From the NCBI RefSeq assembly GCF_029873635.1, contig NC_080423.1:109385087-109449086 (forward strand): a DNA stretch of 64,000 nucleotides, read 5' to 3'. Numbering within the stretch: position 1 is the first letter of the stretch; each line of letters begins with the position of its first letter. Shown here one piece after another: positions 3,679-63,139 of the stretch. A program made the position numbers and the translations under genes. Under the pieces are notes generated by a model, which was not told where the DNA came from, did no database searches, and worked only from the letters and a program-made list of their open reading frames with translations. This stretch comes from Malania oleifera (Eukaryota; Streptophyta; Magnoliopsida; Santalales; Ximeniaceae).

Positions 3679-3919
3679 TGTAAGAACTCGAAAAATATAA
3701 AGGGATTTCTGCAGATTTCGTCGACGAAGCCAGATTTCGTCGACGAAGGCAATAGACTTTTCGTCGACGAAATTCAAAGGTTCGTCGACGAAGAGAAGCC
3801 GAGAGGTCTGGAAAATTCTAAATATCAGACTTCATCGACGAGGCTGCCGACATCCGCGACGAAAATCGGACGGGTCAAAGGCTTAAAAAGGGGATATTTG
3901 GGTTTTCTTCTTCACTAAG

Positions 3920-3985
<66 letters not shown>

Positions 3986-5766
3986 TAAACTCTCTCTACT
4001 CTCTCTCTCTCTCTAGATTTCCTCGCTAGTTGTTGATAGAATCAAAAATCTGAGGGTACCATGAGGATTGTGGAGGGATTCTCTACAACTTCTGTGGATC
4101 GGAATCTCGATTCAAGCAATTTCGAGTTTCGGGCCAAAATCGAGGTAAGGCTCGGTTTTCATTTCTGATTCGGTATATGTGTAGTAGTATGGATCGTATG
4201 CATGTTTAGTATTGTGGTTTGTAGATTTCGGAGTCTCGGTTAGTAGTTTTGAGGGCCGTAGAGTTCGTGGTTTGATTTCGGGTTGAGGTAAGGGAATTTT
4301 GTTTATATCAGTTCATTTTCGAAATCAAGATCGGTAGGCCTGTAGACTACAATCTTATGTATGTTTTGACTACTTATTTGGGGAAATCTATCGGGTGAAA
4401 ATACAGGATTTTTGGGTTATAGTTTTCTAGAAAATTGGGGATTTCGGGTATCATTTCTTATTTAATTTGAAAATCTTTTATGTTATTTAAACTGTATTAT
4501 TGAGGTGACCGTAATCCATATTTGCATAAACTGTACACTTGAAATTGTAAACGATATGATTTTTCGTAAACCAAATAAGTGTGGTACGTGTGTATGTATG
4601 TAAATGTTCCAGGTATTTGAAAAAAAGTTATATGGCGGCTTATTACTGTACGCTAAAATGTATAGGGACGTGAGTTCCAAAGTGATTCCAGGTTTTGTGA
4701 AACGGCTAGGGGCGGCTAACTACCGTACGCCAAAACGGCTAGGGGCGGCTAACTACCGTATGTCGTAACAGTTAGGGGCGGCTAACTACCATATGCTGTA
4801 ACAGTTAGGGGCGGCTAACTACTGTACGCTGTGCCCTGTAACGGTTAACTACCGTGGGCAAGAGTGGCCAGCTCTATATCCGGGGTGCGAAATATCATTA
4901 GTATGATTCGGTTGGTCATCGAATGTAGCAACGAACCACAGTGGGCCTAGGTTGACGCAGCGTAGTTTGCACATGGTAACGTAATCGGGGTTAGACCAGG
5001 TGACCTTGTGTAGTTGCATATGCAGCAATGGATTCCCTATTGGGCCTGAGTCGGAAACCTTCATAGTTTAATGTGTTGGAACGTAACCGTTGTGAGACTA
5101 GGTGACTTGTGCAGTTGTGAGTAGTGTGACGGCACTGACCATATGTATGTATGTATGTATTTGAGTATCGTATGAACTGGTATGGTTTTGTGAAAATACT
5201 GGAACTGTATGGGAATGTATGGAACTTGTTTTGAAATTATATGTATGTGTTTCAAACTGTATCATATGTATGTGTTATGAAGTATGAAAATGACACTGGT
5301 ATGCCACAGACTAATATAACCTGTTTTCTCCCTTACTGAGAGGTGTCTCACCCCGAATATATACAAATGTTTTTCAGGTCCTTCGAGTAGCCGAAACTAG
5401 CATCCTAGCATCCGGAAGCGGGGGGTGTGTTTAGCTACTATTAGTACCTGATAGGTACGAATTTTGTAACCGGGTTGTCCTGATGGATTTTGTAGACACC
5501 CGTGGTATGTATAGTATTTATAGGTATGTTTAACCCTGTATGGTATAGATTCTGGTATGGTACAGTTTGATGTAAAGAAAGACCGTATTTCACTGTGTAT
5601 TTTGATGAGTATGGACATGTGTATGTATGTATATATGGCATCCGTTCACCCCACGGGGTCGGACCCTCTTTGTATGTGGTATCATTTTATGTTTTAATTG
5701 ATACAAAGACAGGTTAGGTTACTTAAATTCACCCCTGGGTCCCATTTCAGGGTTCGGGGCGTGACA
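3679..5766 (+). mobile_element. Tekay-type gypsy solo LTR (T1)
   Basis: A 2,088-bp solo LTR. It starts TGTAAGAACTCG and ends GGGGCGTGACA, flanked by a perfect 5-bp duplication GAGAA (3674-3678 and 5767-5771). Inside, in order: four perfect TTCGTCGACGAA palindromes at 3717, 3736, 3760 and 3781 plus weaker ones; a long CT microsatellite at about 3923-3980; a ~33-bp minisatellite built on GGCGGCTAACTACCGTA at about 4705-4860; and the conserved CTTACTGAGAGGTGTCTCACCCC-like block near 5333-5354. The lineage is inferred from sharing ends and blocks with the LTRs of the element at 5848-18276, which carries gypsy pol. It was inserted into the older family-H LTR. Confidence 0.85.
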
Positions 5767-8351: not shown

Positions 8352-8892
8352 CTACACCTTGGCTATCAGCTCTACTAGTTCTGCATCATTTCTCTGAACT
8401 ATCTTAATCATTTCTTGTAATGTAGGTTGCACTACCAAGCTGGCAATAAATGCATGAGGTTCACTTTCTACCAACTCTACACTGAGTCTCTCCAGATCCA
8501 TCTGAATCGGATGTTGAACCTCCATAGCTGCCAATGCTAGTCCTACTAATTTCCTGCTCAGAGCATCAGCTACCACGTTTGCTTTCCCTAGGTGGTAGAT
8601 AATAGTGCAATCATAATCTTTAATAAGTTCTAACCACCGTCTCTGTCTCATGTTCATCTCATTTTGAGTGAAGAAGAACTTCAAACTTTTGTAATTAGAG
8701 AATATCTCACATCTCTAATCGTACAAGTAATGCCTCTAAATCGTGGGTAGGGTAGTTCTTTTCATACTCTTTCAAATATTGGGTGGCATAAGCTACAACC
8801 CTACTATGTTGCATCAAAACACAGCCGAGCCCTTTCAAAGACGCATCACTGTAAATGACATAACCATCACCCCCTGATGGAATAATCAGCAC
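8352..8892 (-). pseudogene. RNase H region (T2 part)
   Basis: Fossil part of T2. VIYSDASLKGLGCVLMQ is the first catalytic block of gypsy RNase H, followed by VVAYATQYLKEYEKNYPTHD and, further on, [18 protein letters not shown], which closes the domain. This domain removes the RNA strand during reverse transcription in active relatives. It lies between the reverse transcriptase and integrase parts, which confirms gypsy order. Confidence 0.85.
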
Positions 8893-9064
8893 TGGTGTAG
8901 TGACAAGCCTCTGCTTTAGTTCTTGGAAACTCTACTCACAATATTCATCCCATTCAAACCTAACATTTTTTTCTAGTTAGTCGTGTGAGAGGTCTTGATA
9001 AAGTTGAGAACCTATCTACAAACCGACAGTAATAACCCGCCAGTCCCAAGAAACTTCTAATTTC

Positions 9065-9729
9065 CTAAACGATCTTCAGCCAGAACCAATTCAACACTGT
9101 CTCAATCTTGTTGGGATCCATTGAAATACCATCCCCTAAAATAGCATGTCCCATAAATGTCTCTTTCTCCAACCAAAATTCACATTTACTGAACTTGGCA
9201 TACAACCTCTTTTCCCTAAGCATCTGAAGTACCAATCGTAAATGTGTCTCATACTCCTCAAAACTCCTTGAGTAGACCAATATATAATCAATAAAAACTA
9301 CAAAGAACTGGTCCAAATACTGGTGAAAGACTATATTCATCAAGTCCATGAACACAGTAAGAGCATTCGTTGAACCAAATGGCATAACTAGGAATTCATA
9401 ATGTCCATACCTGGTCCTAAAAGCTGTCTTCGAGACATCTTCTGCTTTTAATTTCACCTGATGGTAGCCTGATTTGAGGTCAATCTTCGAATAAACCTAC
9501 GTACCTTGAAGCTGGTCAAATAAATCGTCTATACGGGGTAGAGGATACCTGTTCTTGATCGTCACCTTATTAATTTCCTTATAATTTATACACATTCTCA
9601 TAGACCTGTCCTTTTTCTTTACAAATAAAATTAGAGCTTCCCACAGAGATACACTGGGCCGAATAAATCCTTTATCCAGCAAGTCTTGCAACTGAACCTT
9701 TAACTCTCCCAACTCTGTTGGAGCCATTC
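9065..9729 (-). pseudogene. Reverse transcriptase region (T2 part)
   Basis: Fossil part of T2. Recognisable blocks are [20 protein letters not shown] followed by [16 protein letters not shown], then [16 protein letters not shown], then the FVVFID block around the polymerase active site, and KFSKCEFWL. These are ordered as in Ty3/gypsy reverse transcriptase. At its upstream end the region is interrupted by the nested solo LTR at 9730-12094, with a clean target duplication, so that LTR arrived after T2. Confidence 0.85.
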
Positions 9730-12094
9730 TGTAATGACCCAGAATTAAAATAATTAGAAAATATGATAAATGAAATGGATTAATGGATAATGAAGGAAAA
9801 AGGAAAGAAATTAGAAGGAAAAGCAGGCCTCGTCGACGAATGTCATGTATTCGTTGACGAGTGTCCATCTAAGCTCGGCGACGAACTTGGTTTCTCGTCG
9901 TTGAAGGAATCCCAAGAGAGTATATTTGGAACTCTGAATTTCGTCGACGAGGGTATCTTCTCTTCGATGAAGTTTCTATAGTGTCTCGTCGATGAAGCTC
10001 TGCCTATAAATTGAAATTCTTTCATTTTTAGCTTGAAAACTCGGCAAATTTCTCCTTCTCTCTCTAGAAAACGACCTCCTAGCCTTCTCTCTTCGATTTT
10101 GGGCCGGATTTGACCTGGTTTGACGATCCGGAACCACCACGAGGTTCGTGGGATCATTCTTTTCAAGGATGTAGGAGCTAATCATTGGGTTGTGAGGTTT
10201 GGGAAACATCCCAAAATCAGAGTAAGTTAGTTATTTTGGGATTTTCTTAAGGAATGTTTTTATTTGGAGTCTAAGAAGTAGTAAATAAGTATTTTCTATA
10301 AGATTTAAGTTAATTGAAATTTTTTTTAATTAAGTTAGGATTTTTTGAATTCAGGGTCCAAGTGAACGATGTGGGTATCAGTTCGGGGATCCTACGGGCG
10401 TAGTTTGAAAGTCAGGTAAGGGGGAAATTTATATATTAAATCAGGTTTTTCATGAATTAAAATGGATTATGTGTTATTTATGTATATATGTTTATATGTG
10501 GGTTTAAAATGTCAGCCTTGAAATTATGTTTTTTGAGCCTATGAATGTTTATATAGTTATGTATATGTGAAAGTAAACGAATGGAAGTAGAAAGGAATTT
10601 TTCTAAGAAATTAATTAAGAAATGAAATGTATTTTCAATATATCAATGTTAACTATGGGTTGGCTTATTTTGTAAGAAATGTATATGAATTTTACTTCTA
10701 AAATTGTGTGGCATGAGATTTTGTGCAAATATATGTTAGATATATGAGATGCATGTTAAGTAAGTAAAGCTTATGAATAAAATATGATATGGACAATGTT
10801 GCTTGTGTATGTTAAATGCAATCATGTAAATGTAAGACAGCTGAAAGACAGTCATGTTAGCATATTCTAGCGCATTTCTATGTGGACTAACTGTAGTAGA
10901 TTCTAGCGCATTTTTATGTGAAAACTAACTAATGATGGCTAAAGATCAGTTGTACTATGAAGTAATGAAATAAAAATGTTATCCAATGAAATGACAATGC
11001 AATAAAATAAAATGTGAAATGTGAACGATACGAATAGGATAGAGTCACTTAACGTGAAATGAAATATAAAGTTAAGCTATGAATATGAATGAATGCGTAT
11101 GAATGTATAATGACAGAAAAGAATGATATATTATGATATTAGAAGTATGTATGTACGTAGAACATGTTATGATTGGGCAAGGCGAACTCTTCACCTAAGG
11201 GCTTACTAAGAAAGGCGAGTGCACTAGTAGCTTCAGGTGTGGCAGTAGCTGCATAATGTACTAGAGCAGAGGGAACCTACTTATATGGGCGAGTAGAATT
11301 CTATATTGTTAGGGCCTTTCCCGGTAAACTATTGTTGAATGCATGAGTACGAGATCAAGTTAACACTTGAGGGCTTACTGAGTAAGGTAAGTGCCTTGGT
11401 ATGCTTTAATTGTGACCTTAGGGTTGCCTAAGTATCAAAGCAGAGGGGTGCTACTTGTATGGGTGGGTAATCACCCCTATCCTTAAGTAATGCCGTGGGT
11501 TAAATATTTGCATGTAATTGTGTAGGTTCAGAAAACGATTTCAATGTTATGTAATGATTTATAAATGTATTTTAAAATGATAACTATATACCTCATGTTG
11601 ACCACACGCTGTTTTAATATCTATACTTCTTCCCTTACTGAGATGTGTCTCACTCGAATATGAATGTTTCTTTTTCAGGACATCCTCGAGGTCGGGCCTA
11701 GAGAGCTCGAGGGTTTTAGCATTTTTTTTTTTTTAGGACTGTAAAAAAGAAAGGGTATTTTATGATAAACTTTGGGAATGTAAATATTCTATGTTTTACG
11801 TTTTTATGTTTAAAGGTTATTGAGTAGAGAATGGAATGGTTGTGAATATACTGGAATGTTTTGGAGATGTATGTATCTATGGAAAATATAGGTGATGGAT
11901 AAATTTTATGGATTTCTAGTTAGGATATAGCAAACTTTGGTATTAGGGAATGTTGGTATTGTAGAACTATGCTTATGGAGATTATGGTTATGTTTTCCGT
12001 TGCGTATATGTTGAATTATTGATTTATCAGGATATATCAGGACATTATCAGGTATAAGGCACGGGATCTGGGTTTAGGAGTTCGGGGCGTTACA
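9730..12094 (+). mobile_element. Tekay-type gypsy solo LTR (T3) nested in T2
   Basis: A 2,365-bp solo LTR inserted in the pol region of T2 in opposite orientation. It starts TGTAATGACCCAG and ends GGGGCGTTACA. The flanks CATTC (9725-9729) and CATTC (12095-12099) are a perfect duplication. Palindrome-array members lie at about 9829-9995, for example TCGTCGACGAA at 9830-9840. A TATA box CTATAAATTG follows at about 10004-10013. The conserved TTACTGAGATGTGTCTCAC block is near 11635-11653. The block 11160-11490 holds two related copies of a GGGCTTACTRAG...AAGGYRAGTG unit. It is a relatively late insertion. Confidence 0.87.
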
Positions 12095-13753: not shown

Positions 13754-15721
13754 TGTAACGACCTGCTTAATTAATTGATTTTTTTTCCATATTATAATAT
13801 TCTACATTCTCTGATACCATACTAAGGAAAACCCCATTTATAAACCTAAGCAGCAAGAAGCGGAAATCATATAAACATAATCACAGCCATTATATACAAT
13901 ACCAGAGTTCTGAAATGTTTTCGAATATTTACAGATATAACTATATTCCCAAAATAACCTCAACTGGTGAGGGCTATACAAAAATGCTCCCAAAAATGAT
14001 ACTTACTCTTTGGTAGGGCACTACTGAAGCCCCTCTATTTAGGAGCCTGGTCTGCTCGCCTACCTGGATTACCTGAAAAATATATCAACACTGGGATGAG
14101 CCAACGCTCAGTAAGGAGAAATATTCTATTACTAGTGTGTGGCAAATGAGCTACTATATATATATCATGAAATCTGTTTTCATATAAACATGAATAGCTG
14201 AATACAAAGTATAGTACCAATAATAAATTACACCACCCCTTTTCCCTATTGTTTAACATACAATATTATGGTTATAATTCAAAATACTTCTAGTATACAT
14301 AAGAAGAGTCCCTGTTTCTGTAAATCCGTACGTATGTAATAGTAATTGAAACTGTTCCCTGTGGCTATCTATGTCATGATATGCCCCCTCATGACAAGGT
14401 TGTGCGGCTCGTAGGCTAGATTTACCCTAACTGGCCAACCAGAAATAAATCACTGAACTCTGTCAGTCGACTTGCTTACCTCAACCCATATTTGGATGGG
14501 GAGCCTAACCTCTTCAAGGGCCTAGGTGGTCGACCTTACCACGTATTATCTGAATAGGTGGTTGTACTCATAAAGTAACATAGTATCTGTAGTAACGGTA
14601 CCGTGCTCTGTAGCTGTAAGTCCAATAGGGTCTGATACCATATAATATATTTCTATATATATCTATCTGATTTACCATGATTCTGAAGTAATCATTATCA
14701 CCATGATGCTGCATAACGTACTGAAATCTGAATAATCATAACATGGAACTGCATATTCGTAATACTGGAATTCGTATAATCATGGTACTAAAGTTCACAT
14801 AATCACAGTACTTGAATCCATAAAATCATGGTACTTCATTCATAAAAATCATGAAACTACAATTCGTAAAACATATCCCCGTACTACATACATTTTCACA
14901 ACCACACCATACTTTAATACATAATTTTCGTAAATAAATATACTGTATAATAATTAGAAATTTCCTAACATAGCATATTTCCCTTACCTTAACTTTGAAA
15001 AGCCCTTAGGGAATACAAGCCTAACACCCGTAGGGCCTTCTACAAAACACCCTGAAACCAACATATGCCAGAACATAACATCAATATTTTTTCGCATATA
15101 TCATTTCCTATAACTGCCAGGAAGTCAAAAACTGGATAAAAGACCTTACCTTGAATTTGGGATGAATTCCAACTCTCTTTTCTCGACGATCCGCTCCAGC
15201 AGCTTCACAAAGAACTCCGCTAGGAGTGTCGTCGTAGCTTTGGATCGTCGATCCAGTGACTGCTGGGGCTGGAATCGAAGAAAGAAAGGAGAGGGAGTCA
15301 TAGGAGAGAGAGAGAGAAGAGAGAGAGCGGCGAGAGAAATGAGAAATATCTTGGGTTTCCACTATTTATAGGGCCAGATTCGTCAACGAGACACGTCACC
15401 TCGTCGACGAGCCCTTCACAAAATTCGTCGACGAGGCCCTGTGTTCGTCAACAAAATTCAGAGCAACCCGAACCATCTCTCGGTATTTTCTCGTCGACGA
15501 AGCCCTGTGTTCGTCAACGAAATTCTGAAGGCCTTCGTCGACGAGACCTTCTGTTCGTCGACGAAGCTTGGCAATTTTTTTTGAAATTATGATTATTTAA
15601 TATTATCTCCAAAATACAATGTCATCGACGAACGCGAAGTCTACGGCCTCCTTCTGTTACTGTTTCTATCTTCTCTCACTCTTTAATATTTAAAAATGCT
15701 ATTATTCTTCTGGTCACTACG
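13754..15721 (-). mobile_element. Tekay-type gypsy solo LTR (T4) nested in T2
   Basis: A 1,968-bp solo LTR within the gag region of T2, same strand as T2. It begins TGTAACGACCTGC at 13754; its other end is near 15721. The flanks CGAGG (13749-13753) and TGAGG (15722-15726) are a target duplication with one mismatch. Minus-strand order: palindrome array at about 15378-15640, TATA (CTATAAAT in reverse complement near 15362-15370), and a GA-rich run near 15300-15330. The conserved GTTGTGCGGCTCG block is near 14399. Confidence 0.8.
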
Positions 15722-16072: not shown

Positions 16073-17884
16073 TGCCTATTTTACCATAAAATCTTTTTTT
16101 AAAAAAAACATAATAAACCTGATAAAACATAATCCACCTGGACCCATGGGTACTAGAAATATACCTGAAATACAACACTGATACCTAAGCAGCGAGCAAC
16201 GTAAAATCACATAAATTTCAAATCATCCATCCAACACAATACCAGAGTTTTACTACAACTATCATATACAAACACATATTAAAAAATATTCAAAAAGTGC
16301 CCTAGGGTCGCCACCCAAAAATTCGTCAGACGCTAGAAATGACTTACCCTTCAGATAGGGTAGAACAGTCAAACTCTAACGCTGTGGAGCCGTATCCGCT
16401 CTTCTATCTAGGACTCCTAAAATGTTTATGTAGCTGGGATGAGACACCTCTTAGTAAGGGAAATAAACTAATATCAGTGTGTAGCAATATAAGTAATTTC
16501 GTGTTATACGTAGAACAATACATAAATCATATTTATTAAAGTTGTCTATAACATATATGGGAAAAACATAATTTCTCATAACATGATATATCATACTGAG
16601 TTTCTATACATAAAAATCATCTCGTATAACTGTACATGAAATACACCATGGATGGTTAGCTGGTTGGTATTATGTCCTACCCCAACATGACTGGGTTGTG
16701 CGGCTCGAAGGCGGGACCTTGCAATAGCTGGCCGACCACGCTAGATCAACATAATTCTGTAAGTACGATGGGTCTGCCCCTTCTGGTTCGGACACTAGAG
16801 GGATGCCTACACTATCATAAAATCACATCGACTGCCGATCTCCCACTACCCCTTACAGCAAGTGGTAGCACTAACATATAAATGATTGTGATCATATAGT
16901 TACGGTATCGTACTTCGCGAAAGCCTAAACCAAGCCAACCAAGTTCTGATAACATATAGTATATTCCCAAATAATGATACATTACTATTTCATAATAATA
17001 TCTGTCATGTTAATATTTTCATAAAACCTTGCATAACATATCATATAAAATTCACGGCCCTTATGTCAGCATAGCATATAAAATCTACGGCCCTTACGCC
17101 GACATATCATATAAAATCTACGGCCCTTACGCCGGCATATCATATAAAATCTACAGCCCTTACACCAACATATCATATAAAATCTATGGCCCTTACGCCG
17201 GCATATCATATCAAATCCATAGTTTGAAAATCTCTGTATCGTTTTTGACATTTTCTTGAAAATAGTAATAACGTGCTTATTCTGAAAACATAATATTTCA
17301 TCATCATAGTTTCCATGGTAAATGTTATTCATGCCACACAAAAGGGGTAATATCTAGTATATAAAATCTGTTCTAAAGTCATATTTTTGATATTATACAT
17401 GAAAACCATATTTCTGATCAACAACATTATTTCCAACATAATACTGCAATATACATATTTACCTGAAATTAAATTCTGTTAAATAATAAATATATTTTTA
17501 TTAGAAAATTGACTTAGTTTATCTCCTTACTTGACTTATGGAAAAGCCCACAATTTACTCCAAAATTACGCTCGTGTGTTCCCTAACTCAACACCCTGAA
17601 ATTGATATTTTCCAACAAAAACTTGAGTATTATCTTACCTAGCATATTCTTCTTAGTCTAGAAATACCAAAAACCTAATAAAACTGAAATTAACCAACTT
17701 ACCCAAATTTTGGGATGGTTCCCAAGTGAGCTTAACCAACAAATTACTCCAGCAGATATACAGAGAATCTTCCCACAAGTGACGCGGCAACTTCAGATCG
17801 TCGAACCAATGAAGAACGGGGCTGGATTTCTACAGAGAAGGGGAGGGAGTCATGGGAGAGAGAGAGAGAGAGAGGGAGAGAGAA

Positions 17885-17943
<59 letters not shown>

Positions 17944-18276
17944 TCTGTAAACTTTACGCAAGAAAAATGAAGTTTTGAGCTTATATAGAAAGCTTGTTCA
18001 CGTGGCCTCGTCAACGAGTCACATCTCCTTGTCGACGAGTCAATGAAGGAAGCTCGTCGACGAACACCTTCTCCTCGTCGACGAGTTTCAAAGTCCGAAA
18101 ACAATCATTTCGGTATCTTCTCGTCAACGAGATGCATTTCCTCGTCGATGAGCCCAAGAACCCTGCTCGTCGACGAACACTACTCGTCGACGAGACCCTA
18201 CTGAAAATCCTTAAGAAAATTCCTTTTACTTTCCTTCTTTTATTATTTAATTGTTATAATTCTTCGGGTCTCTAGA
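16073..18276 (-). repeat. 5' LTR of T2
   Basis: The complete 2,204-bp right-hand LTR of T2. It holds six tandem copies of a ~30-bp unit (CATATAAAATCTACGGCCCTTACG and variants) at about 17036-17215, a GA microsatellite at about 17857-17941, and a palindrome array at about 18005-18200 with CGTCGACGAG members. The open frames over 17029-17341 on both strands are by-products of the 30-bp repeat, not genes. Confidence 0.8.
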
Positions 18277-19129: not shown

Positions 19130-21735
19130 ATTTAGGACCCTTTTATATTTTTGAAAATAATTTCATTTTTCATTTTAGTTTTTAGAAAAATTACAAAATA
19201 GTAAGCTAATTTTTTATTTTTATAATACTTCTATGAAATAAATAATAAAAATAAACAGTTTTAGACACTATTTGCTTGCAAAAATAGTTTTATTTTTGTA
19301 CTTATTTATTCAATTAATTACAAAAAAAATTACCTTATTTTCCAATTTTTCAAATATAGAAAAATTGAAAAATATTTTTCATTATTTTTCTAAATTTCCA
19401 ACTCTTGATTTGCACATGGGAGCGTGAGATTGAGATCTTGAACTTCGATTTATGTTGATTGTATATAAAATTTCTTGTAATCCACATAAATACAAACTCA
19501 AGCCCCCAAATTCATACCTTATATAAAATTTGAAAAAATAAAAAACAAGCTAAGTTTTTGTGATTATTTTAAATTTAAAATAAAAAAATATTTTACACAT
19601 TTAAACAAAATTTTTTATTTTCTACCTTTTTAATATGAATCTTGATAAATTTAAAAATAATATAATATTTTATAATTATTTGAAACACTAAAAATTTAAA
19701 AAATAAAAAATGTTTTCTACAACTAAACAATGCCAAAACCTCTCAACCACGTCTATATACTAAAATTTATTAATCATAATTTTTCTCTTAAACTATGTTT
19801 GGGAGGGACCTTTAATTTGGATTTGTGTGAGTTTTGATTTGATGTAACACAAATTTGTATTGAAATTTGTCCAAATCCACCCAAATCCAAATACAAGATC
19901 TGAAATCCATGCTTCAAATGCATGGTTAAGCTCATAAGAACATTTTTTCCCAAAAAATATATTAGTTATTGAGGCGTCATTATTGCTACATATAATGATT
20001 TCTCGTATAGAATATATATTTTCTATTTTGAAAGTAAAAACATAGTTTCATGGATTTTAGTATCACATGGTTCACCGATCGTGTGAGTGTATTCCAACCC
20101 ACCCTACACATACAGACACACGTATACACATTATAAAAAGAGAAATGATTAACATCCCAAGCACGTGATTCAAGCTGTGGCCCTGGCAGACACAGGATCG
20201 GGTCCCATGTTCAGACGTGGATCCCACCCTTGTGGGTGTCTGCAACATAATCGATTCCACATTTAGATGTGTAGCACAACTATTACAAAAAGACATGTTT
20301 TCAGAGTGAAAAGTGTTAAGAATCCCGACAAATTTACAACTAAGATATGTATACGGTGCATGTTTATATGTGGGTCCCAAGTTTAAGTGGCCCTCATCTC
20401 TTACATCTTGTTCGTAAACTTCTCAACCTCCCACGTGATAACTTCAATATCAAAGAATATGGTAAATTTGGACAAATTTGAAGTAAGAATTGGCGCCAAC
20501 TCCTTCAACTTTCATCATCAACTAAAACTATATAACAAAGGGGATCATAAATCTTACTAGCTACTTGAAGACAAAGAAGGGTATCAAAGATCGTAAAGAG
20601 GGATATTCCTCCTAATTTTTTTTTTATTGTTTTTGATGCATTTAACAACTAGATAAAAATTGTGAGAGAGAGCAATAAATGGGAAAAATATGAAGGAAAT
20701 AAGTCTTTTAATTTTATTTTCTCTTAATAAATTAGTTTGACCTTCTTGTAGCTTTTTAAAAGGACATTTTAAAAAGTAGTTGATGAAAAGGTGTTTATTG
20801 ATATTATTTTTAAAATGTTTAGTCCCTTGTGAAAAATGAATTATAGAAAGAGAAAAAAAAAAAAAAAAACTGAGTTTGGATCAGTTTGGCCCTTCTGGCT
20901 TTTTAAAAGGATCTTTTAAGAAGGAGCTAATGAAAAAGATGAAAATGAGCTCTTTGGTATTGTTTTAAAAATGTTTGGCCCCCTTGTGAAAAAAATGTTG
21001 TTCGGAAGAAAAAAACTAGCTTTGAGTGTTCGGTAAAAAAATAATTGGTAAGGTGTCTAGAAGTATTTAAAATGACTAAAACAAATATGTATTTTAAAAA
21101 ATATAGTTAATGCTTTGACAGTTTTGTAATATTTGAAAAAAAAAAATTAAAGGCAACAATGGAAGCGAACAATTTGTCGGAGAAAAAGCTAAAGGGCAAC
21201 AATAGAAGTGAATAATTTGTTGAAGAAAAAGCTAATTTTTAATTTTTAAAAGTTTCAAATTTGTAACTTTTAAAAGCTCACAACTAAAAAAATTGCTAAA
21301 ATTTGACTTTTAAAAGTTGAAAATTTTAATCAAACTCGTGCAACCCAACTTTTACTTTTAAAAAGGAGAAGTTGAGGCAAAATAAAAAATAAAAAACAAA
21401 TAAACGGAGCTATTTAGAAAGAAAAAGTTTGCTTTGAGCATTTGATAAAAAAGTTGTAAGATGTCTAAGGTTTAGTTTGACTCTCTTGTGACTTTTGAAA
21501 AAATATTTAAAAGAAACTTATGTTGGAAATAAAAAGTTGGCTTTGTATGTTTGGCAAAAAAATTGTAGGGCGTCTAAAAATATTTAAAATAACTAAAATA
21601 GATATGTATTTTTCAAAAGTATAACTAATCCATTGATAGTTTTGTAATATTTGAAAAAAGATTAAGGACATTAATGGAATAGAATAACTTACTAAAGGAA
21701 TAGTTAGGGGTCGTTTGGTATTACTATAAAAAAAT
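19130..21735 (+). repeat. Unclassified AT-rich repeat, copy 1 of a direct duplication
   Basis: This stretch is closely matched by about 23690-26145 in the same orientation. Shared landmarks in order: ATTTGCTTGCAAAAATAG, the ACAGTTTCATGGATTTTAG stretch, a ~485-bp module (about 20135-20620), and a series of degenerate units with AAATGTTTGGCCCCCTTGTG and TGTCTAAAAGTATTTAAAA words, ending at GGGGTCGTTTGG. No coding function is recognisable. Whether it is a segmental duplication or two insertions of one unknown element is unclear. Confidence 0.75.
20135..20622 (-). repeat. Orphan ~485-bp module, copy 1
   Basis: One of three copies in the window (also about 22945-23432 and 24590-25085). Each runs from an AAATG(A/T)TTAACAT edge to a GGGATATTCCTCCTAATTT edge. 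Each copy keeps a minus-strand open frame whose product shares the words NMSFCNSCAT and VGST with the others. The frames differ in length, the copies have no inverted repeats at their ends, and I do not recognise the product. It could be part of an unknown transposon or simply a repeat with an accidentally open frame. Confidence 0.6.
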
Positions 21736-22443
21736 TAGAGAATCAAAAACTAGAAACAAAAACCAAAAACAAGAAACAAAAACTAAAGACTAGAAATCAG
21801 CAACCTATTTGATTAATTTTATAAAACTAATACAAATTAAGAACCTAACTAAAAAATTCACATTTTCATCGTTAAATCAAATAATATTATAAAAATGTAA
21901 TTAAAATAATAAAATTACAAATAATACATATTAAAAATTACTATAATAAAAATAAATTTTATTATAATTATTTTTCTTAATTTTTCTAGTTTCAAATTTT
22001 ACTTTACAATAAAATTTTAATTGGGCATAACAATTGAAAAATAGTAAAAGTATTTTATAATAATAATTATTATTATTTTAATTATTTTTAATTCATAAAT
22101 TCATTTAATTTTAATCTTAATTAAAAATTGTATAACATGAATAATTTAATCCAAAAATCCTATATATTTCTAAAACTAACACAAATTAAAAACTTGTTTA
22201 AAAAATACTCATTTTCATCTTTAAATCAACATTATAAAAATATAATTAAAATAATAAAATTAGAAATAATACACATTAAAAATTACTATAATAAAATGGA
22301 TTTTTATAATTATTTATGTAATTGTTTTACTTTCAAAATTTACTTTATAATAACAATTTTAGTAGACATGATAATTGAAGAATAGTAAAAGTATTTTATA
22401 ATTGGCTTTACTACTCTGATTTGAAATTTATTTATATTTCACT
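21736..22443. repeat. AT-rich tandem duplication, ~345-bp unit
   Basis: Two degenerate direct copies, near 21848-22060 and 22195-22405, share ATTTTCATC(G/T)TTAAATCAA and AGTAAAAGTATTTTATAAT words. The plus-strand open frame at 22128-22385 falls inside the second copy, is almost all AT codons and has no recognisable domain. Confidence 0.5.
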
Positions 22444-22944
22444 TATAATTATATTTAAATTCATATGATCATTTAACTTTTATTTTTATTTAAAAGTATA
22501 TAAAATAAATAATTTAATCTAAAAAATTGTTTTTGAATATTAAAATTTATGACAACAGGTTTTCAAAACAACTGAAAATCATAGAATCTGATTCTCAGTT
22601 TTTTGACAAATAGTTGAAAACCATCAAGAGAAATAGAAAATTGAGAACATAAGTGTCTTTCTGGTATCGTTGTTGTTTTCTATTTTCTGTTTTTATTTCT
22701 TCACACAAAAGAAATAGATTATAAAAATGCGTTTATTTATATTGTGAGTTTTCTGTTTTTATAATCGGTTTTTAGCTATTTTCCAAAAAACTAAAAATTA
22801 AATTTTTTTTTATTTTTAGTTATTTTGATAACCTGTTGCTAGAAATTTTAATATCTAGAAACAAATTTTTTGGATTAAATTATTTATTCTATACACTTTT
22901 AAATTAAAATCAAATTTAAATTGTCATATGAATTTAAATATAAT
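22444..22944. repeat. Long inverted repeat (hairpin-type element)
   Basis: Arms of about 140 bp at 22444-22585 and 22800-22944 are reverse complements with roughly 85% agreement by eye. Both read ATTATATTTAAATTCATATGA at the outer end and GCAACAGGTT / ACAACAGGTT further in. The loop is about 215 bp. This is the shape of a MITE or foldback element; no clear target duplication was found. A transcript would form a long hairpin, a possible small-RNA source. Confidence 0.6.
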
Positions 22945-23432
22945 TAAAAGAGAAATGTTTAACATTCTAAGCACATGATCCTATGGTGGCCCTGACAATC
23001 ACAGAGGTAGGTCCCATGTTTAAAAGTGGATCCCACCCCTGAAAGTGTCTGCGACATAATCGAATCCACACTTAGAAGTGTTGCACAACTATTACAAAAA
23101 GACATGTTTTTGGAGTGGAAAGTGTTAGGAATCCCAACAATTTTATAACTAAGATATGTATAGGATACAAGCTTATATGTGGATCCCAAGTTTAAGTGGC
23201 CCTCATCTCTTACATCTTGTTCGTAAACTTCTCAACATCCCACGTGATAACTTCAATATATACAAAGAATATGATAAATTTGGACAAATTTGAAGTAAAA
23301 ATCGGCGCCAACTCCTTCAACTTTCATCATCAACTAAAACTAAATAACAAAGGGGATCATAAATCTTATTAGCTACTTGAAGACAAAGAAGGGTATCAAA
23401 GATCGTAAAGAGGGATATTCCTCCTAATTTAA
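22945..23432 (-). repeat. Orphan ~485-bp module, copy 2
   Basis: Second copy of the module described at 20135-20622. It lies alone between the two larger duplicates, directly against the right arm of the inverted repeat, and ends before AATAAGCAGGTTGTTACAG, which is not shared. This independent copy defines the module edges. Confidence 0.6.
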
Positions 23433-23689
23433 TAAGCAGGTTGTTACAGTAAGGACTAGTGCAAGGACTATAGGTGGAAAGACTAGAGAATTTCCAATCA
23501 CAATAGGTACTTGTACATCAAGGATCTACTTTGAGCCATTATTTTTTTGTTTTAGTGATCGATCAACTGACTAAGAGTATCCAAATTGAGGTTTCATGGT
23601 ATATGTTGTTTGCTGATATTGTTTTGATTGATGAAATTAGGGGCAGAGTAGAGGCTAAATTAGAATTATGAAGAGAAACTTTAGAATCT

Positions 23690-26145: not shown

Positions 26146-26220
26146 ATTAAAAATGTTTGCCCCCTACTCTCTGCTAGAAAATAAAAAAATAAAAAATAAT
26201 AATAATATAAAATAAGTGGA

Positions 26221-33300: not shown

Positions 33301-35451
33301 AACGACCCGAATTTTAAATGAAATTTAAGTAATAAGAGGAGGGGAAAAATGGAATTTGAATGATAGAAGAAAAAGGGAATTGGAAACAAAAACAGAAGAG
33401 GGAAGCTGCCAAGCTTCGTTGACGAACACAGGGTTTCGTCGACGAAGGCTTAAGAGAATTCGTCGACGAAGAATTATCGAGAGGGGTTTTGGAGCCGACT
33501 GAATTTCGTCGACGAAGACTGGATTTCGTTGACGAAATTTATGAAGAACTCGTCCACGAATTCCGCTGCCTATAAATATGAAAAATCCGATTGTTTATTC
33601 ATTTTTCACACTCCTCTCTCTCCTCTTCGGCTCTCTCACTCTCTCTATTCGATTTTGGGTTAGTTTTACGTCGGATCGAAGATCTGAGGCTACCACGAAG
33701 TTCCTGGCAAAGTTCCCTACAAGGTTGCCAGAGCGGATCGTTGGAAAAACAAAGTTGGAAATCATCCTTGGGTTGAGGTAAGGCTTTTTAAGCCAAATTA
33801 GACTTTATGGTAGTTATAGGAATTGATGTACGTATGAAAATACTAATGTTTAGTACTGGGGATTTTGAGTTTCAGGGTATTGAGTAGGAAATCCTACGAG
33901 GGTCAGGCTAGGAAATTTGAGGGGCTTTCTCAGTAGTCAGGTAAGAGAGTAAACTAAAGCAGTTCTTTTCCATGCAAACTATTATTGATTAAGAGTAGTT
34001 TTATTTTCAGAAGAACATATGATATATTCGTTTATTATGAATGAAATGTACGATTGGAAAAATACTGCTATGATGCTTAAAAAGTATATGTATGTATGAG
34101 ATGTCAGAAAATTATGATTTTAAAATATGAAGTATGACTTTTAATAGAGCATGTGTGACATGAATATTATTTTACGTGAAATGAGATAAAATATGAATGC
34201 TTTTACGAGTAAAACACATTTTCAGGTATTTTGGAAAGATGGGTTATGTTATATTGAGTTGACGAATATATGATAAATGAGTCATTTTCAAATGTAAATA
34301 CCTGAAATGTATTTGGCGCGAGGCCATATTTATGTTATCGGCACGAGGCCGTATTTATATAATTTTGGCACGAGGCCATGTATTTATGCTATCGGCACGA
34401 GGCCGTATTGATATTATTGGCGCGAGGCCATATTTACTATGATTTTGGCACGAGGCCATACGTATTGATATTATTTGTGCGAGGCCATATTTACTATGAT
34501 TTTGGCACGAGGTCATACGTATGATTTCGGCGCGAGACAGTATCTATGTTTTCGGCACAAGGCCGTAATGATGTTATGTATGATCAGGTATTATATGTTA
34601 TCACAACCAGGATGTTAGTTTAGTTCAGACCAGGAGCTCGGTACCGTAGCTATGGGTAGATTAGATTTGGCACGAGGCCGTATTAGTGCTAACCATTCCA
34701 TGAGGGGATGAGAGATGGATAGTCGATGTGACTTTCAGTAGAGTATGGGCGTCCACCTGGCAGTCCGGACCAGGGTGTGGCAGGTCCATCGTACTTACAG
34801 ACATATTTGATTCGGCAGTGGTCGGCCAGCCATTGTTGGGTCCCACCTTCGGGCTGCACAACCCGTCATGGGGGGTAATACATGACATTAGCTAGCTATT
34901 CATCCTGAGTATATTTTCAGTATTACGAGTTATAATAGGTGTTTATGTATGTTATGATATGTTAACGAATATGAAAATACATGATTATCCAGCATAATAT
35001 TATGATTATTTCCAGAGTTATGAAATGTATTGTATATGTATAAGCACTTTAAATATTAATGTTGCCACACAGCTGTATTTAGTTTACTTTCCCTTACTGA
35101 GAAGTGTCTCACCCCCCAACATTATTAAATTTTTCAAGAGCCCAGAGAGACCGGTGGGTCAAGGCTGCCGTTGAGTTAGTGAGATTACCCGTGAAAAGGG
35201 TAAGATTTTGTACTAGGGTTAGAGTTATTTTGTGTGACCTTAGAGATATTTTGATGTATATGGATATGTACAGAAGTACAGTATATTGATGTTAATAGAA
35301 AACTCTGGTACTATGTTTTATGGATGGATGTATGGATTTTTAAGTTTACTGCTGCTAGGTTTTCCGCTGTGTATGACAGGTATCCCCGTTATCCACAGGT
35401 TTGGGTTGACCATTTGATATATTTTGTTATATTTTAATGAGCGACGTTACA
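33298..35451 (+). mobile_element. Tekay-type gypsy solo LTR (T5)
   Basis: A 2,154-bp solo LTR from TGTAACGACCCG to GAGCGACGTTACA. The flanks TATAT and TATAT agree, though they lie in TA-rich DNA and so carry less weight. Parts: palindrome array at about 33414-33560, TATA box TATAAATATG at 33571, CT-rich run, a ~30-bp minisatellite with GGCACGAGGCCGTATTTAT units (about ten copies, 34315-34580), the block CGGGCTGCACAACCC near 34849, and CTTACTGAGAAGTGTCTCACC near 35093. Confidence 0.82.
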
Positions 35452-35553: not shown

Positions 35554-37759
35554 TGTAAGATTTTATTTAATGTAATCTAAAGATCAAATTTCAATTTGGA
35601 AATTTTGATCTTTCTGGACTCTTGCCCCAGTGCCTCTCAGCTCTTTCTCCAACTCTCAGTTCTCTTCTCTGTCCCTCCTTCTCTCTCTTCGATTTCCTCG
35701 GCCTAATGTGCGCTGATCGGAGAACGAAGAATACCACTAGTTTCCATTCTCCACCATCGTCAATCTAACCAGAATGGATTTTTCATATGAGTGTTGTAGG
35801 CACCACTCTTAGGGTACGGTAAACCTACACTTTCTCTTTAATTTCTCCCCAATCTTAGTTAAATCAACGATCAGACACCACCACGAGGTCCTAATCTCGA
35901 TCGTCGTCATTGTAATTTTGGGGTCCTAGGCACCACTCCAAAGTGAGGGTGAGATTTAGGAAATTAAGAAAATTTGTTATTTTTTGGAGTTTAATTGTTT
36001 ATTTGGAATTTAAGAGTCTAAGAAATGTTAAAATAGTATTTTATTTAGGGTTGATTTGATTGAACTAGAGTTATTAAATTAGGGTTCGGGTGAGCGCCGC
36101 AGGCATCATTTTGAGGTACCTACTTGTAATAACCTAAGAAAATCTTCAAGGCCTCGTCGACGAAAACAGGGGATTCATCGACGAGGGTTCTTTAGAATCT
36201 TGTCAATGAAGACCCATCTCGTCGACGAAAAGATACCGAGAGAGGGTTTTTGGAAGTCTGAAATTCATCAACGAGGGTGCAGGTTCGTTGATGAACTTTC
36301 TACAAGACTCGTCGACGAGGTGACGTGTCTCGTCGACGAATCCGGGCCTATAAGTACTTCTAAAATCGAATTTTGACAGAATTTCTCCGCAAATCTCCCT
36401 TTTTTCTCTCTAAAAACGCTCCTCTCCCCTTTTCTCTTCGATCCCGGTTCCATTTCTCGCCGGATTGAAGATCTGAGGCGATCACGACGCTCCTAGTGAA
36501 GTTCTTCGCAAGTCTGCTGGAGCTGATCGTTGGAGAATTTGATTTGGAATTCATCACAATCTCAGGGTAAGGTATTTAATCCAGTTTTTACCTTTCCCAC
36601 AGTTATAGGAAATGTAGTATGCAAAGAAATACTAATATTTTGTTCTGGGGAATGCTGCTTTCAGGATGTTGAGTTGGGAACCCTGCGGGAATAGGGTCAG
36701 AGTACAGTAGGGACTTTTCAAAAGTAAGGTAAGGGAAATATGTTGTGCTAGGATATTTTAGAAGATTTATCAGTAGATTATATGTGTATGTTTACCAAGA
36801 TGATGATCAGTTATTTTCCTAAATATTATGAATATTATTTACATAGCAGAATTAAAGAAACTGAGCATGAGACTGTGTTTACTCAAATGTGTGGCATGAG
36901 TTTAATACAGTATAGTATGTAGATTTTTTAGTATTACAGATATTTTGTTATACAAATTATTAGCAATGAATGAGACTACAATATTTCTCAGAATAACATG
37001 ATTTCTAAACCGTAACACTCATACAGATTATTCAGACATATTATGCAGTATAGCATCGAGATGCTACAGATAGATTATTCAGAGAGTACAAATATTATAT
37101 ACAGAGTATACATATATTATATACAAATATTTTATACAGATATTACAGATAGTACAGATATAAATCACAGACGATACAGACAGATATTATATATATATAT
37201 ATATATTTCAGTCAGATATTTCAGAAATTACAGCTCAGAATTATAGTGTTATGGTTGTTTTTGAAATCATGTTAAAAGAAGCAAGATAGTTATATATTTA
37301 GTTATGTACTCAATATTACATGATATCACATCCTTGTGGAAATTACAGACAGAGAAATACAACAGAGCACGGTACCGTTGCTAGTTTAGACACATGCAAC
37401 CACATAACTTAGATAGTATGTGGATTACGTCTAACCGTATGAGGAGAGATTGCAGTCTCCCCAGCATGTAACGTCCCTCTATTTCTTAATGTAAACTATA
37501 ACATAATAAATAAAATAGTCAACCCAAACCCGTGAGTAGCAGGGACTCCTGTCAAGCACAGTGGAAAACCTAGCAGCAGTTAGGCCTGGCAAAACGGGTA
37601 ATGACCCGTCGGGTCACCCGGATCCGCCCGTTTAAAACGGGTTCGGATTTGAAGAAGTTAACCCATTTAATATTTGGGCGGGTCACGGGTTAACGTGTTT
37701 ATAAACGGGTTATCCGGGTTTGGGCGGGTCACCCGGCGGGTGACCCGTTATTTTGAATC

Positions 37760-38215: not shown

Positions 38216-38741
38216 AGAGGTGAGTCAAGATTTTTTTATTTTTTAGGGTCTCTGTATGACTGTATCTGTTAGACTTGTTATTGCCTTACTTACTGTTACT
38301 GATTTATTGGCTTGTTGGCTGTTGGGTTTCATGGATGATGCCATGATGGATTTGTGATGAATAAATAGATTTGTGATGAATAAATAGTACATAAATAAAT
38401 AGTAGATAAATAAAATAAATTAAGAAAACAAGAAGGATCCTACCATGTTCAGAAGCTAAGTAGAATGAAAATCAAGTAATAATAAAATAAAATTTTATAA
38501 TAATGCTTTTTGTGTTTCCCCTACAGAAAATAAAAAAATAATTTGTTGTCACACACACACACACACACCCAATAACAGATTTGTGTTTATTGTTTAAATA
38601 TTTCATTATTTTGTTTATTTTATTATTTTTCGGAGTCTTAACTATTTTTCTTTGTTAGGGAATTAGTCTGGTGCGAAAGCCCAAGACACCCAGCGTATCC
38701 AAAAAATTATTCTTTGTTAGGGATAATACAAATTGCAAATA

Positions 38742-41013: not shown

Positions 41014-44000
41014 TTAGTTTTTTTATTATCTTTTGAAATTGTAATCTTGTGAATTTTTATGGAACTCTTTTAAATTGGTTTGTTTCTAATATTTACTTTA
41101 TATTTTTTAAGATTATGTTTTGATTGTGGAAACTTGAATATTTGTATTCATGTGTTATGCATAATGCAATGAATTAAAAAAAATGACTTGAATGAACTTC
41201 TAAATATTTCACATTTACTCTATTGTAATAATTACGGGACTCATTTACATTTAGATTTATAAATAGATTTTTATGCATGTATTATGCATGTATTCTTTTT
41301 TTAATTTTCATTTTTCACAAATTGTATTCATTCAAGGGATGTCATTATTTTTACATTTTCATTTCTTTGCATTTAGAAATTAATACTAAATGCAGTTTTT
41401 TTTTAAAAAAAAATATCATTTATATGAAAATTTTAAAAATTTTAAAATAAAATATATATATTTTTAAACGGGTGACCCGTTACCCGCTCGTTTATTAAAT
41501 GGGCGGGTTAGGGTTGACATGTGTGTGATCCATTTAACATTGACCCGTTTATGACCCGCCCGTTTATGACCCGGCCCATTAGTGACCCGCCTAAACCCGG
41601 CCCGCCCGCCCGTTTTGCCAGGCCTAGCAGCAGTAAACATAAAATCTCAAACATCCAATCATAAAACATAATACTAGAGTTTACTACATCATCAATATAC
41701 TGTTTATATGTACAATCTCCAAAAGTCAAAACAACACTAGGACCATACAACAAAAATCTCCTGGTCTTGGTTCAACGCTTACCTTTCTAGTAGGGAAGCT
41801 CCACTCACTCAACGACAGCCTTGACCCACTGGTTTCTCTAGGTTTTTTGAAAAATTTATTAATGTTGGGGGTGAGTCACTTCCCAGTAAGGGAAAATAAA
41901 CTAAATAAAGTTGTGTGGCAACATGAATATTTAATACAATTATACGTATACAGTACATTTCAGATTTCGTAAATGTTCATCATATCATACTGAATAATAT
42001 GTACCCAGGATGAATAGCTAACTGATGTCATGTATTACCCCCCATGACGGGTTGTGCAGCCCGAAGGCGGGACCTGACAATGGCTGGCCTACCACTGCCT
42101 AGTCAAATATGTCTATAAGTACGATGAGTCCGCCACACCCTGGTCTGGACTACCAGGAGGAGGACGTCCACACTCTACTGAAAGTCACATCGACTATCCA
42201 TCTCCCATCCCCTCGTGGGATGGATCCATCTCCCATCCCCTCGTGGGATGGTTAGCACTAATCTGACGTAAATATATGATCTACAATACAGCTACGGTAC
42301 CGAGCTCCTGAACTGAACTAAACTAACATCTGGGTTCTAATAACATATAGTACATGATAATATAGCATCTTTCATAATTTCATAAGTACGGCCTCGTGCC
42401 GAAACATAAATACGGCCTCATGCCGATAACATAAATACGGCCTCGTGTCGATAACATAAATACATGACCTCGCGCTAAAATCGTTTCAGATATATATATT
42501 CATCAAAATCATCACAACATAACTCATCTTTTCATAATACCTGAAACCATACTTTGTTCGTAAAATCTTTCACATCATAATACATTTCACATAAAATAAT
42601 ATTCGTGCCACACATGTGCTGTTAAAAGTCATACTTCATATTCTAAAATCGTGATTTTTTGGCATCTCATACATACATATATATTTTAATCATCATAGCA
42701 GTATTTTCCCAATCGCACATTTCATTCATAATAAACAAATATAACATATGCTTTTCTAAAAATAGGTTTACTTATAATTAATAATAATCTGCATGGAAAA
42801 TAACTACTTTAATTTATTCCTTTACCTGGCTACTGAAAAAGCCCCCAAAATACCCTAAGCTAACCCCCGTATGATTTCCTAATCAATATCCTGAAACTCA
42901 AAACTCTCAGTATTAAATATCAGTATTTTCATGCGTACATCATTTCCTATAACTACCATAAAGTCTAATTTGGCTTAAAAAGCCTTACCTCAACTTAGGG
43001 ATGATTTCCAACTAACTTTCACCAACGATCCGCTCCGACAGATTTGGAGAGAACTTCCCCAAGAGCATTGTGGTGACTTCGGATTGACGATCTGGCGTAA
43101 ATTTGGCCCAAAAATGAGGAGAGAGAGAGAGAGAGAGAGCGAAGAAGGCTTAAGAATGAAGTCAAAAATTGAATTTTTCCATATATATAGAACTAGATTC
43201 ATCGACGAGCCACGTCATTCGTCGACGAATTCTTTATAATTTAGTCGACGAATTTCAGTCCTCGTCAAAAAAATTCAGGTGGCTCAAAAACTTCTCTCGG
43301 TATTTCTTCGTCAACGAATTTTCTTCTACCCTCGTCGACGAATCCCCTGTGTTCGTCGACGAGTCCTCTGATAAATCTCTTAAAATTTATCTTTATCCCC
43401 CAAATGCAATGTCATCGATGAATGCAGAGCGTTCGTCAACGAAGTCTTCGACCTCCTTCTGTTTCTGTTTCTATTTCTCTCCCTCTTAATTATTCAAATT
43501 CCATTTTTATTCGGGTTGTCACACAGCATGCTGGGTTGAGGTCGCTAGTTAGACAATGATCAGAGGTTAGAGATGGCTCGGAGTGATTGCAGTGGGCTAG
43601 ATCGATACAGATTGGCGGATGTACAGATATAGATTGACTTACGAGGAGGGCCGACCAAGTTAAGTCCAGCCTAAGGGCTGCACAACCCTATCATAAGGGG
43701 ATATATCATGATATACAGATCCTAGGGTATAGCAGAAGTTCCTATGTACAGATATATCGCGCAACAGTAGTTTATATTATTATATTAGCAGTATTTTCAA
43801 ATAACAAATACAGAGACACAGATATACTTTAAATTACATTACAGATATTCTGTATAGTTTATCAGTTTATTTATTTCATAGTATTATTTCAGTATATTGA
43901 ATGTGTAACTCAGCCGCCGCACACTAATAATAGTATATTTCTATTTACTGAGTATTGTCTCATCCCAGTGACTTAATGTTTTTCAGGATATCCAGTTATG

Positions 44001-46535: not shown

Positions 46536-47125
46536 TTTTTGCCAATTTTTCTGCATAAAATCCGAGGTTTGGGCTATTTATACTAGGGGCTTCATCGACG
46601 AGCCACGTCACCTCATCGACAAGGTCAAGAGGTAATTCGTTGGCGAAATTCAGAGTTGCCCAAAAACCCCCTCTCGATATCTTCTCGTCAACGAAGCACA
46701 CCTTCGTCGACGAGCCCAATATACAATGTCGTACATTTTGCTGCCCCCTTTTATTTTCTGTTTCAATTTTTCTCTCTCTTATTATTTAAATACCATTATT
46801 GTTCGGGTCATTACATTCTCTGTATTCTCTTTAGCGATGGGATGATAAAAGAGAAATTTTTGGAACCATTGTGCGATCGGGGAACCATAACCACTATTTA
46901 TATAACCGTTGGCCATATATGTGTATTTCCGTTTTCGCCTATTATCATAAACGGAAATTACCACTTAAGTATCTACACATTAAAAATCCATAACCTATCA
47001 GATACATTAAAATCCATCATTATCCAAAATAATTGATCACTTTTAAATAGGATCTATCCTTATTAAACAGTCCACAATACATAATTATTTCATATATAAG
47101 TCCATAATTGAATTTTGATCCAACA
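44690..47125 (-). mobile_element. Copia-type LTR (C1), interrupted
   Basis: Read on the minus strand it begins TGTTGGATCAAAATTC at 47125 and ends CAGAGAACA at 44690, about 312 bp net. It includes the TATA-like ATATAAATAGTGG near 46893-46905. The Tekay-type solo LTR at 44697-46815 sits a few bases from its left edge. No matching 5-bp duplication was found around C1, so it may be an edge of a larger rearranged element. The copia call rests on the LTR style and length only. Confidence 0.5.
44697..46815 (-). mobile_element. Tekay-type gypsy solo LTR (T9)
   Basis: A 2,119-bp solo LTR, TGTAATAACCTGC to TTCGGGTCATTACA, flanked by a perfect duplication TTCTC (44692-44696 and 46816-46820). The conserved GTTGTGCAGCCCGAAGGCGG block lies near 45304. 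A long GA microsatellite is at about 46458-46532 and the palindrome array at about 46590-46715. Units like CATACGGCATTGCGCCG repeat near 45636-45740. Confidence 0.85.
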
Positions 47126-62300: not shown

Positions 62301-63139
62301 TATTATTAAAAATTAAAATATTTTCATTTTTATCTTAAAATCTGCTATTGAAAAATGACAATTAAAAATATTTAGAAAACAAAAGTATATTTTGTTGTGA
62401 CAGATTAAAATAAATATTGTAAACTTAAATACAGAATTTTAAAACGTTTTCTAATTTGTTGTATTTTAAGATTTGGAAAAAGAAAGGGCAGACTGTGCAG
62501 AATGTCCTGATATGGTAATTAATTATTTGGGGGCGAGTGAAGGAGCGCCTGCTGAGTGCTGACGAGTGATGCACCCAGTGAGTCAGCGAGGCAAGGACAG
62601 GGTTTGGGTACTTGGGCCTGCCACATGCACACCCATTAATTATAAAAACTCATTTGTATAATAAAGTGAGTTTGGCTATTTGAGTTATTGGTAAATCAAG
62701 TTATGGTTTTATAATACATTAATTATGAAAATTAATTGGCAATATTGATTTTTTTATAATTATGCTACGAATTTTATAGTATATAAATAAAATAATAGAT
62801 ATTTTGTGTAAAATATTAAATGTATAGCCTCCAAGAGTAGCTAAAATCTTAAACTCACTCTCTTAATTAAATAATTTACTGTATTAAAATATTTTATAAC
62901 AAATTTAAATATATTAATAGGAATTTAGGAAAGTAAACTTTTCATTCCAAATAGATTTTTTTTAAAAAAAAATTAGCTCCCCAAATCTTTTTTAATGAGA
63001 CTTAGACCTTATATTAAGTGTGTAACATATATATTATAAATAATTTTTTACGAGTTGAGTACCAGTATAGCTCACATTCAATTATGTACAAATTCACCTC
63101 TGAATAGATGAACAAATTCATTATCTTCGTGAATTAGTC
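59331..63139. other. AT-rich intergenic DNA
   Basis: No complete gene recognised. Open frames at 59856-60098 (minus), 59875-60075 (plus) and 61010-61204 (minus) lack domains. A G-rich stretch at about 61569-61605 and the GC-richer 61605-61700 stand out from the AT background but have no coding signal. Words such as GGGGCTGTTTGGTCAAAG (61879) and GGGCTTGTTTGGTTTTAAC (59431) resemble MITE ends, without paired ends that I could find. Confidence 0.55.

Follow-up and report, generated by a model that had tools for sequence, protein, structure and literature searches.

Introduction

Why do LTR promoters in one stretch of the Malania oleifera genome carry arrays of a 12-bp palindrome, and what would such arrays do for the elements that hold them? 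The stretch, referred to as the window, is the whole 64,000 nucleotides analysed (NC_080423.1, positions 109,385,087 to 109,449,086). A sequence-only reading of the window had described four perfect palindromes in the first promoter (T1) at 3717, 3736, 3760 and 3781, spaced by 19, 24 and 21 bp and followed by weaker copies, together with similar arrays in seven other elements (T2, T3, T4, T5, T7, T8 and T9). All of these sites and arrays are present. Beyond what that reading observed, the window arrays share one spacing pattern, (20-24-20)-46-(20-24-20)-TATA, of which T1 is a variant.

Palindrome arrays of the window

The arrays and the features next to them are given below, with the intervals between neighbouring sites in brackets.

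3679..3716, forward strand: predicted 5' end of the T1 LTR (TGTAAGAACTCG...) up to the first site
3717..3863, forward strand: T1 array, sites at 3717, 3736, 3760, 3781, 3831 and 3852 (19-24-21-50-21)
9829..9996, forward strand: T3 array, seven sites (21-24-20-46-20-25), TATA at about 10005
15379..15565, reverse strand: T4 array, two full modules (20-24-20-46-20-24-21)
15621..15632, reverse strand: outlier site upstream of T4 (TTCGTCGATGAC)
18007..18194, reverse strand: T2 array, two full modules (17-25-21-46-21-25-21), class B
33415..33560, forward strand: T5 array, six sites (20-24-46-20-24), TATA at about 33571
36153..36340, forward strand: T7 array, two full modules (21-25-19-46-20-24-21), TATA at about 36349
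43198..43363, reverse strand: T8 array, seven sites, one with four mismatches
43411..43443, reverse strand: two outlier sites upstream of T8
46591..46714, reverse strand: T9 array, five recognisable sites (19-48-24-21), TATA at about 46582

The first four T1 sites are perfect copies of TTCGTCGACGAA, and those at 3831 and 3852 carry two and three mismatches. All eight sites of the common pattern are found in three of the eight window arrays (T2, T4 and T7), and T3, T5, T8 and T9 hold part of it. The arrays had been said to occupy the same place relative to the TATA box or start region, which applies to the arrays other than T1, each with a TATA nearby; T1 has only a TTAAAA-like stretch, which lies downstream together with GGGTCAAAGG. 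TATA begins 20 bp past the start of site 8 in T4 and 20 bp past the start of the last site in T8, and lies at +31 in T2, where CACGTG follows site 8. The gap between sites 7 and 8 contains TGACGTG in T4 and T7, and the corresponding gap between the last two sites contains TGACGTGG in T8 and T9.

Several further features were observed in the window. A bZIP-like TGACGTG[GT] lies between the last two palindromes at 36320-36328, 15391-15399, 43210-43217 and 46603-46611. The outlying upstream sites of T4 (15621-15632) and T8 (43411-43422) run into TCGATGACATTG, which may mark another conserved box. Tandem arrays of a second kind, with units of 33, 57 and 25 bp, occur at 4707-4829, 17037-17217, 34312-34572 and 42381-42463; by position these arrays lie further inside or near the same LTRs, and they differ from the palindrome array in having a variable unit and length. 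A 115-bp unit is repeated three times at 63139-63484 (98% alike), and a 2.5-kb segment is directly repeated at 19174-26146 with about 79% identity, plus extra partial copies. Two overlapping open reading frames at 38733-40563 resemble, by eye, a hAT-type transposase whose N-terminus is BED-like.

Abundance and specificity of the palindromic word

Within the window, 47 sites match TTCGTCGACGAA with at most two mismatches, against 1.42 expected and a maximum of six in 100 shuffles, and 46 of them lie in or beside the eight LTR promoter arrays, the exception being 59106. The sample was widened by 20 stretches of 10 kb (L009-L028), chosen for exact sites close to one end of contig C1, and by 14 further stretches (L029-L042), mostly of 1 kb, picked as likely LTR pairs or dense sites. 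Every one of L009-L028 contains at least one array, and the 29 arrays there make 37 with the eight of the window. In these sampled stretches the word marks LTR promoters rather than being scattered: 204 of the 205 sites with at most one mismatch to YTCGTCGACGAR, counted over the window and L009-L028, lie in an array or no more than 80 bp from one. The real word forms 38 clusters of at least three sites in 287 kb, against 0-1 for each of 15 palindromes of the same letters, three of which contain three CpGs. Hits to these control palindromes number 0-4 in 14 of the 15 and 42 in one, which is two letters off the real word.

Across the 1.49-Gb genome there are 37,861 exact copies of TTCGTCGACGAA and 67 of the reversed word, a crude control that contains no CpG. 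The eight window arrays hold nine exact sites, and scaling the genomic count by this ratio gives, as a rough guess, about 34,000 arrays genome-wide. A degenerate pair of sites 20 bp apart was found in no stretch of a viral collection and in none of a prokaryote collection, and an Rfam scan at gathering scores gave no match.

A fixed layout of four-site modules

Intervals between neighbouring sites were counted without a template in 57 arrays; as these share ancestry and LTR pairs enter twice, the counts do not amount to independent tests. Of the 398 intervals, 370 fall into fixed classes: 202 of 19-21 bp, 108 of 24-25 bp and 60 of 44-51 bp, with 28 others. The intervals follow each other in the order short-long-short, gap, short-long-short, and the typical array consists of eight sites in two modules about 46 bp apart. 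The four-site module (about 20-24-20 bp) occurs in 51 of the 57 arrays and is absent from six. At least two consecutive complete modules are found in 27 arrays and not in the other 30; when the interval classes were shuffled within arrays, the mean number of two-module arrays was 0.2 and the maximum three over 2000 shuffles.

The number of sites varies around this plan. Among 37 clusters, 13 have eight sites, eight have seven, ten have at least nine and six have five or six. Three of the 57 arrays have six sites, not four, before the central gap. A third module is complete in one array (L018, 5006-5308) and partial, in register, in two others (L033, 417-766; L040, 739-998), and in all three the extra module keeps the 20-24-20 / 46-48 register.

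A template fit was also made, which holds each interval within 4-5 bp of the template; because the fit is limited in this way, claims about the layout rest on the template-free interval counts. Full arrays are the 23 of 37 in which all eight fitted positions have four mismatches or fewer, and 14 were dropped. The automatic rule gave some arrays the wrong orientation (L019:4839 and L023:2926 among them), and these fail the eight-site filter. In the 23 template-fitted full arrays the distance from site 1 to site 8 is 174-180 bp (SD 1.8), and in 16 arrays the distance from the LTR start to site 1 is 28-179 bp (SD 47). Per 100 aligned bases, gaps open about equally often in the array (2.98) and downstream (3.21), and gap columns amount to 4.2 in the array against 7.5 downstream. 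Array gaps are thus about as frequent as those downstream but smaller, which speaks against a strict reading of the layout and places the constraint on distance within a base or so.

The host element

The coding domains of the host were read in one old full-length copy, L025, whose LTR pair lies at 1208-2831 and 8479-10000. In broken frames, its Pfam matches run in the order zf-CCHC, RVP_2, RVT_1, RT_RNaseH, Integrase_H2C2, SH3_Tf2-1. Since the integrase follows the reverse transcriptase, the order is that of Ty3 elements and not of the Ty1/copia Sireviruses, and L025 is a Ty3-type LTR retrotransposon. A TGTAAYRACCYGAA-like start (at most three substitutions) is found upstream of the array in 16 of the 23 full arrays, and Tekay/Del LTRs begin TGTAAYGACCCG-like. 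Elements of that lineage carry a chromodomain at the C-terminus of the integrase; broken chromodomain-like pieces were seen by eye in one L025 frame, and a 27-residue piece gave no Pfam match. The LTR start and the chromodomain-like stretch make a tentative assignment to the Tekay/Del chromoviruses likely. No accessory DNA-binding gene was noticed in L025 among the six frames searched of 15 with at least 90 residues.

Promoter boxes and a probable activator array

A TATA lies shortly downstream in 15 of the 23 full arrays, 20 bp past the start of site 8 in 12 of them, the commonest class, and 31-32 bp past it in three. A simple TATA search found none in the other eight, some of which have TTTAAA- or CATAAA-like stretches by eye. 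Many arrays have a CT-rich stretch after the TATA region. The last gap, between sites 7 and 8, contains ACGTG in 15 of the 23 full arrays, against about 0.06 expected, and TGACGTG in 12; we take this box to resemble a bZIP site. Two smaller promoter classes differ after site 8: class B (three arrays) has CACGTG there with TATA-like DNA about 30 bp away, and class C (four arrays) has GTCAAAGG, with TATA-like DNA at 31-32 in three. The central gap holds a CCGAGAG-like word, by a loose pattern, in 18 of the 23.

Putative dimer sites at fixed distances that adjoin an ACGTG box and a TATA are best read as an array that activates LTR transcription. It is probable that the palindromes form the U3 activator array of a large Ty3-type group, each being bound by a dimeric host factor. 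The unit is a module of four YTCGTCGACGAR sites about 20-24-20 bp apart, and the usual promoter carries two of them, separated by about 46 bp. TATA then begins 20 bp past the start of the last site in the commonest class and about 30-32 bp past it in the other classes. Each palindrome would be occupied by a dimer of one host DNA-binding protein. Sites 20-21 bp apart, that is, two helical turns, would lie on the same face of the DNA and may be filled as pairs, and the step of 24-25 bp would rotate the pair that follows through about one third of a turn. A bZIP-type factor on the ACGTG of the last gap may help to bring the transcription machinery to TATA.

The letters of the site are consistent with such a protein. 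They were compared in 275 of 296 fitted positions, those with four mismatches or fewer, a cut-off that trims heavily decayed sites. The site ends are mostly Y and R around a core of TCGTCGACGA, and the two half-sites are equally conserved, which fits a dimer. The proposal of the sequence-only reading that a dimeric protein binds here is supported in part, by a symmetric, repeated site with like half-sites across promoter classes. Parts of the half-site resemble the INDETERMINATE-DOMAIN zinc-finger motif (TTTGTCG) and the NAC, ARF and LBD motifs, none of which fits the whole. A heat-shock element was considered and rejected, as TTC and GAA stand six bases apart and not two.

Proposed constraint across lineages and decay after insertion

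The layout can be followed across promoter classes that have diverged elsewhere. Class A (19 arrays) was compared with class C (four arrays) in 76 pairs, and 11 of the 37 arrays were left out, five as unclassed and six for lacking more than one site. Identity is 0.342 in homologous short spacers, against 0.300 when spacers are shuffled, 0.967 in the four non-CpG letters of the motif and 0.746 in the whole 12-mer, and the fitted intervals differ by a mean of 1.46 bp. Spacer identity is 0.51 within class A and 0.54 within class C. With spacers near random yet motif and intervals kept, the layout has outlived the sequence between the sites.

A different picture is given by copies that stay where they inserted. 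In four LTR pairs, at JC distances of 0.064-0.147, so that even the youngest pair (0.064) is not near-identical, the two LTRs differ at 41 of 174 CpG letters inside the motif and at 67 of 280 in the other CpGs of the LTR; for non-CpG letters the figures are 20 of 222 in the motif and 165 of 2600 elsewhere. Transitions account for 37 of the 41 motif CpG changes, and array gap columns in the four pairs number 0, 0, 0 and 19. Resident copies decay as fast in the motif as around it, which suggests that constraint acts in lineages that are still transposing and transmitted. Judged from this CpG-type decay, the sites of resident copies look methylated.

As the three symmetric CpGs seem methylated in resident copies, the protein may bind methylated DNA. 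We tentatively raise the possibility that the rigid grammar has been kept through spacer turnover for a higher-order complex of one undescribed plant protein, perhaps a binder of methylated DNA, which would let a silenced family fire.

An anti-silencing platform, in which the array recruits a host or element protein that removes or blocks DNA methylation, as VANC does on VANDAL elements, is unlikely. The targets of VANC are dense arrays of short motifs in non-coding transposon DNA, enriched in one transposon family, and the arrays here resemble those of VANDAL21 in the density of sites in a non-coding region, as far as the available part of that paper goes (PMC5735166). The promoter is also CpG-rich, with about 19 CpGs per array and a CpG observed/expected ratio of 1.84 against 0.71 in the 500 bp downstream (23 arrays). 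The equal decay of motif CpGs and other LTR CpGs, however, gives no sign that resident copies are protected. In the sections of PMC5735166 at hand, the motif of VANDAL, a DNA transposon, is non-palindromic, AT-rich and in one orientation, and the targets of its element-encoded protein turn over rapidly by tandem-repeat gain and loss, whereas here a palindrome stands in an LTR with copy number and spacing largely fixed.

The same CpG richness raises the question of whether density is what counts, with CpGs read by methyl-CpG-binding proteins or kept as an island and the exact word irrelevant. CpG islands are indeed described near the Sirevirus TATA and, among grasses, in the 5' part of Del LTRs, in the portions of those papers available (PMC2829016, PMC4029996). 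The most conserved letters of the site are nevertheless the four outside CpGs, T2, T5, A8 and A11 (274, 270, 270 and 270 of 275 sites); each of the six CpG letters is retained in 215-247 of these sites, and C-to-T or G-to-A substitutions make up 234 of their 259 changes. A density element would also not require fixed distances, and we regard it as highly unlikely.

A functionless tandem repeat frozen by descent, the decaying minisatellite that the sequence-only reading named as its alternative, is very improbable. In its favour, the sites are repeated, a third module is complete in one of the 57 arrays and partial in two, and short stretches of three window arrays are picked up by a tandem repeat finder. 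Inside one array, however, the spacers do not look copied from one another, with an identity of 0.43 (the better of two registers) against 0.38 for non-homologous spacers of different elements, but the motifs do (0.78), and the layout outlives spacer identity. The refuting condition set by the sequence-only reading, random spacing in young LTRs, comes out the opposite way: the fixed classes take in 115 of 119 intervals in the 18 least decayed of 37 arrays and 124 of 141 in the 19 most decayed. Regularity correlates weakly with decay (rho -0.35, p 0.035), among related arrays in which decay is only a proxy for age. A hairpin, a cruciform or a nucleosome-phasing signal that works through the shape of the DNA is equally improbable. 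Perfect inverted repeats occur and the outer letters are slightly associated (for C1 and G12, odds ratio 1.98, p 0.008), but the three inner pairs show no covariation (p 0.23, 0.32 and 0.49), and self-complementarity across all 12 letters is limited to 64 of 275 sites.

Relation to known elements

Returning to the probable activator array, its closest counterparts in the literature are the repeated motif (RM) boxes of Sireviruses, which are palindromic, mostly contain CpG, number at least eight per element with 3-14 in the LTR, and lie in the upper LTR half, in CpG islands a short way upstream of TATA, according to the accessible part of the paper (PMC2829016). That part also describes their function as unproven (Bousios et al. 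2010, PMC2829016). The arrays here are likewise palindromic, CpG-rich and present in many copies upstream of TATA, and the Vitis Sirevirus box CGGTCGACCG has the centre GTCGAC in common with the word described here (PMC2829016, in part). Sireviruses, however, are Ty1/copia elements with a CGG-CCG core in 12 of 13 boxes, in contrast to the Ty3 host and TCGTCGACGA core here, and the available text gives copy numbers and positions of RM boxes without a fixed spacing rule, whereas spacing here holds to about one base across promoter classes (PMC2829016). The arrays are the same kind of structure as the Sirevirus boxes, in another superfamily, with another core and a rigid layout.

The BII boxes of Tnt1 reportedly stand in a tandem layout, in an element whose superfamily and sequence differ from those of the arrays here. 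They are U3 boxes known to bind defence-induced DNA-binding factors, as stated in the part of the source at hand (PMC3316501), whereas for the arrays described here binding is putative. Del (Tekay) LTRs, probably of the same broad lineage as the host, share a CpG-rich 5' block with the arrays; in the passages available, CpG islands are found in the 5' part of grass Del LTRs and in none of the eudicot Del elements of that study, and they evolve by length turnover, opposite to the arrays here (PMC4029996). The text of PMC4029996 does not contain "palindrom".

Searches of the open-access literature with the 12-mer, its substrings and TCGTCGA combined with DAP-seq brought up no plant factor that has such a site. 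The 12-mer itself matched two papers, judged by their titles to concern Clostridium gene editing and a begomovirus microRNA, and its substrings gave no plant-transposon title among the matches listed. The fixed spacing was not found described in print, in an open-access literature that leaves out most subscription journals.

Implications

A common view holds that transposon promoters evolve quickly and so escape silencing; in these elements a spacing rule persists while the sequence turns over. The elements that keep this rule together hold tens of thousands of sites. The four-site module would serve as bait for the host factor on which these elements would depend, and it offers a clean case for asking whether a transposon activator must read methylated DNA.
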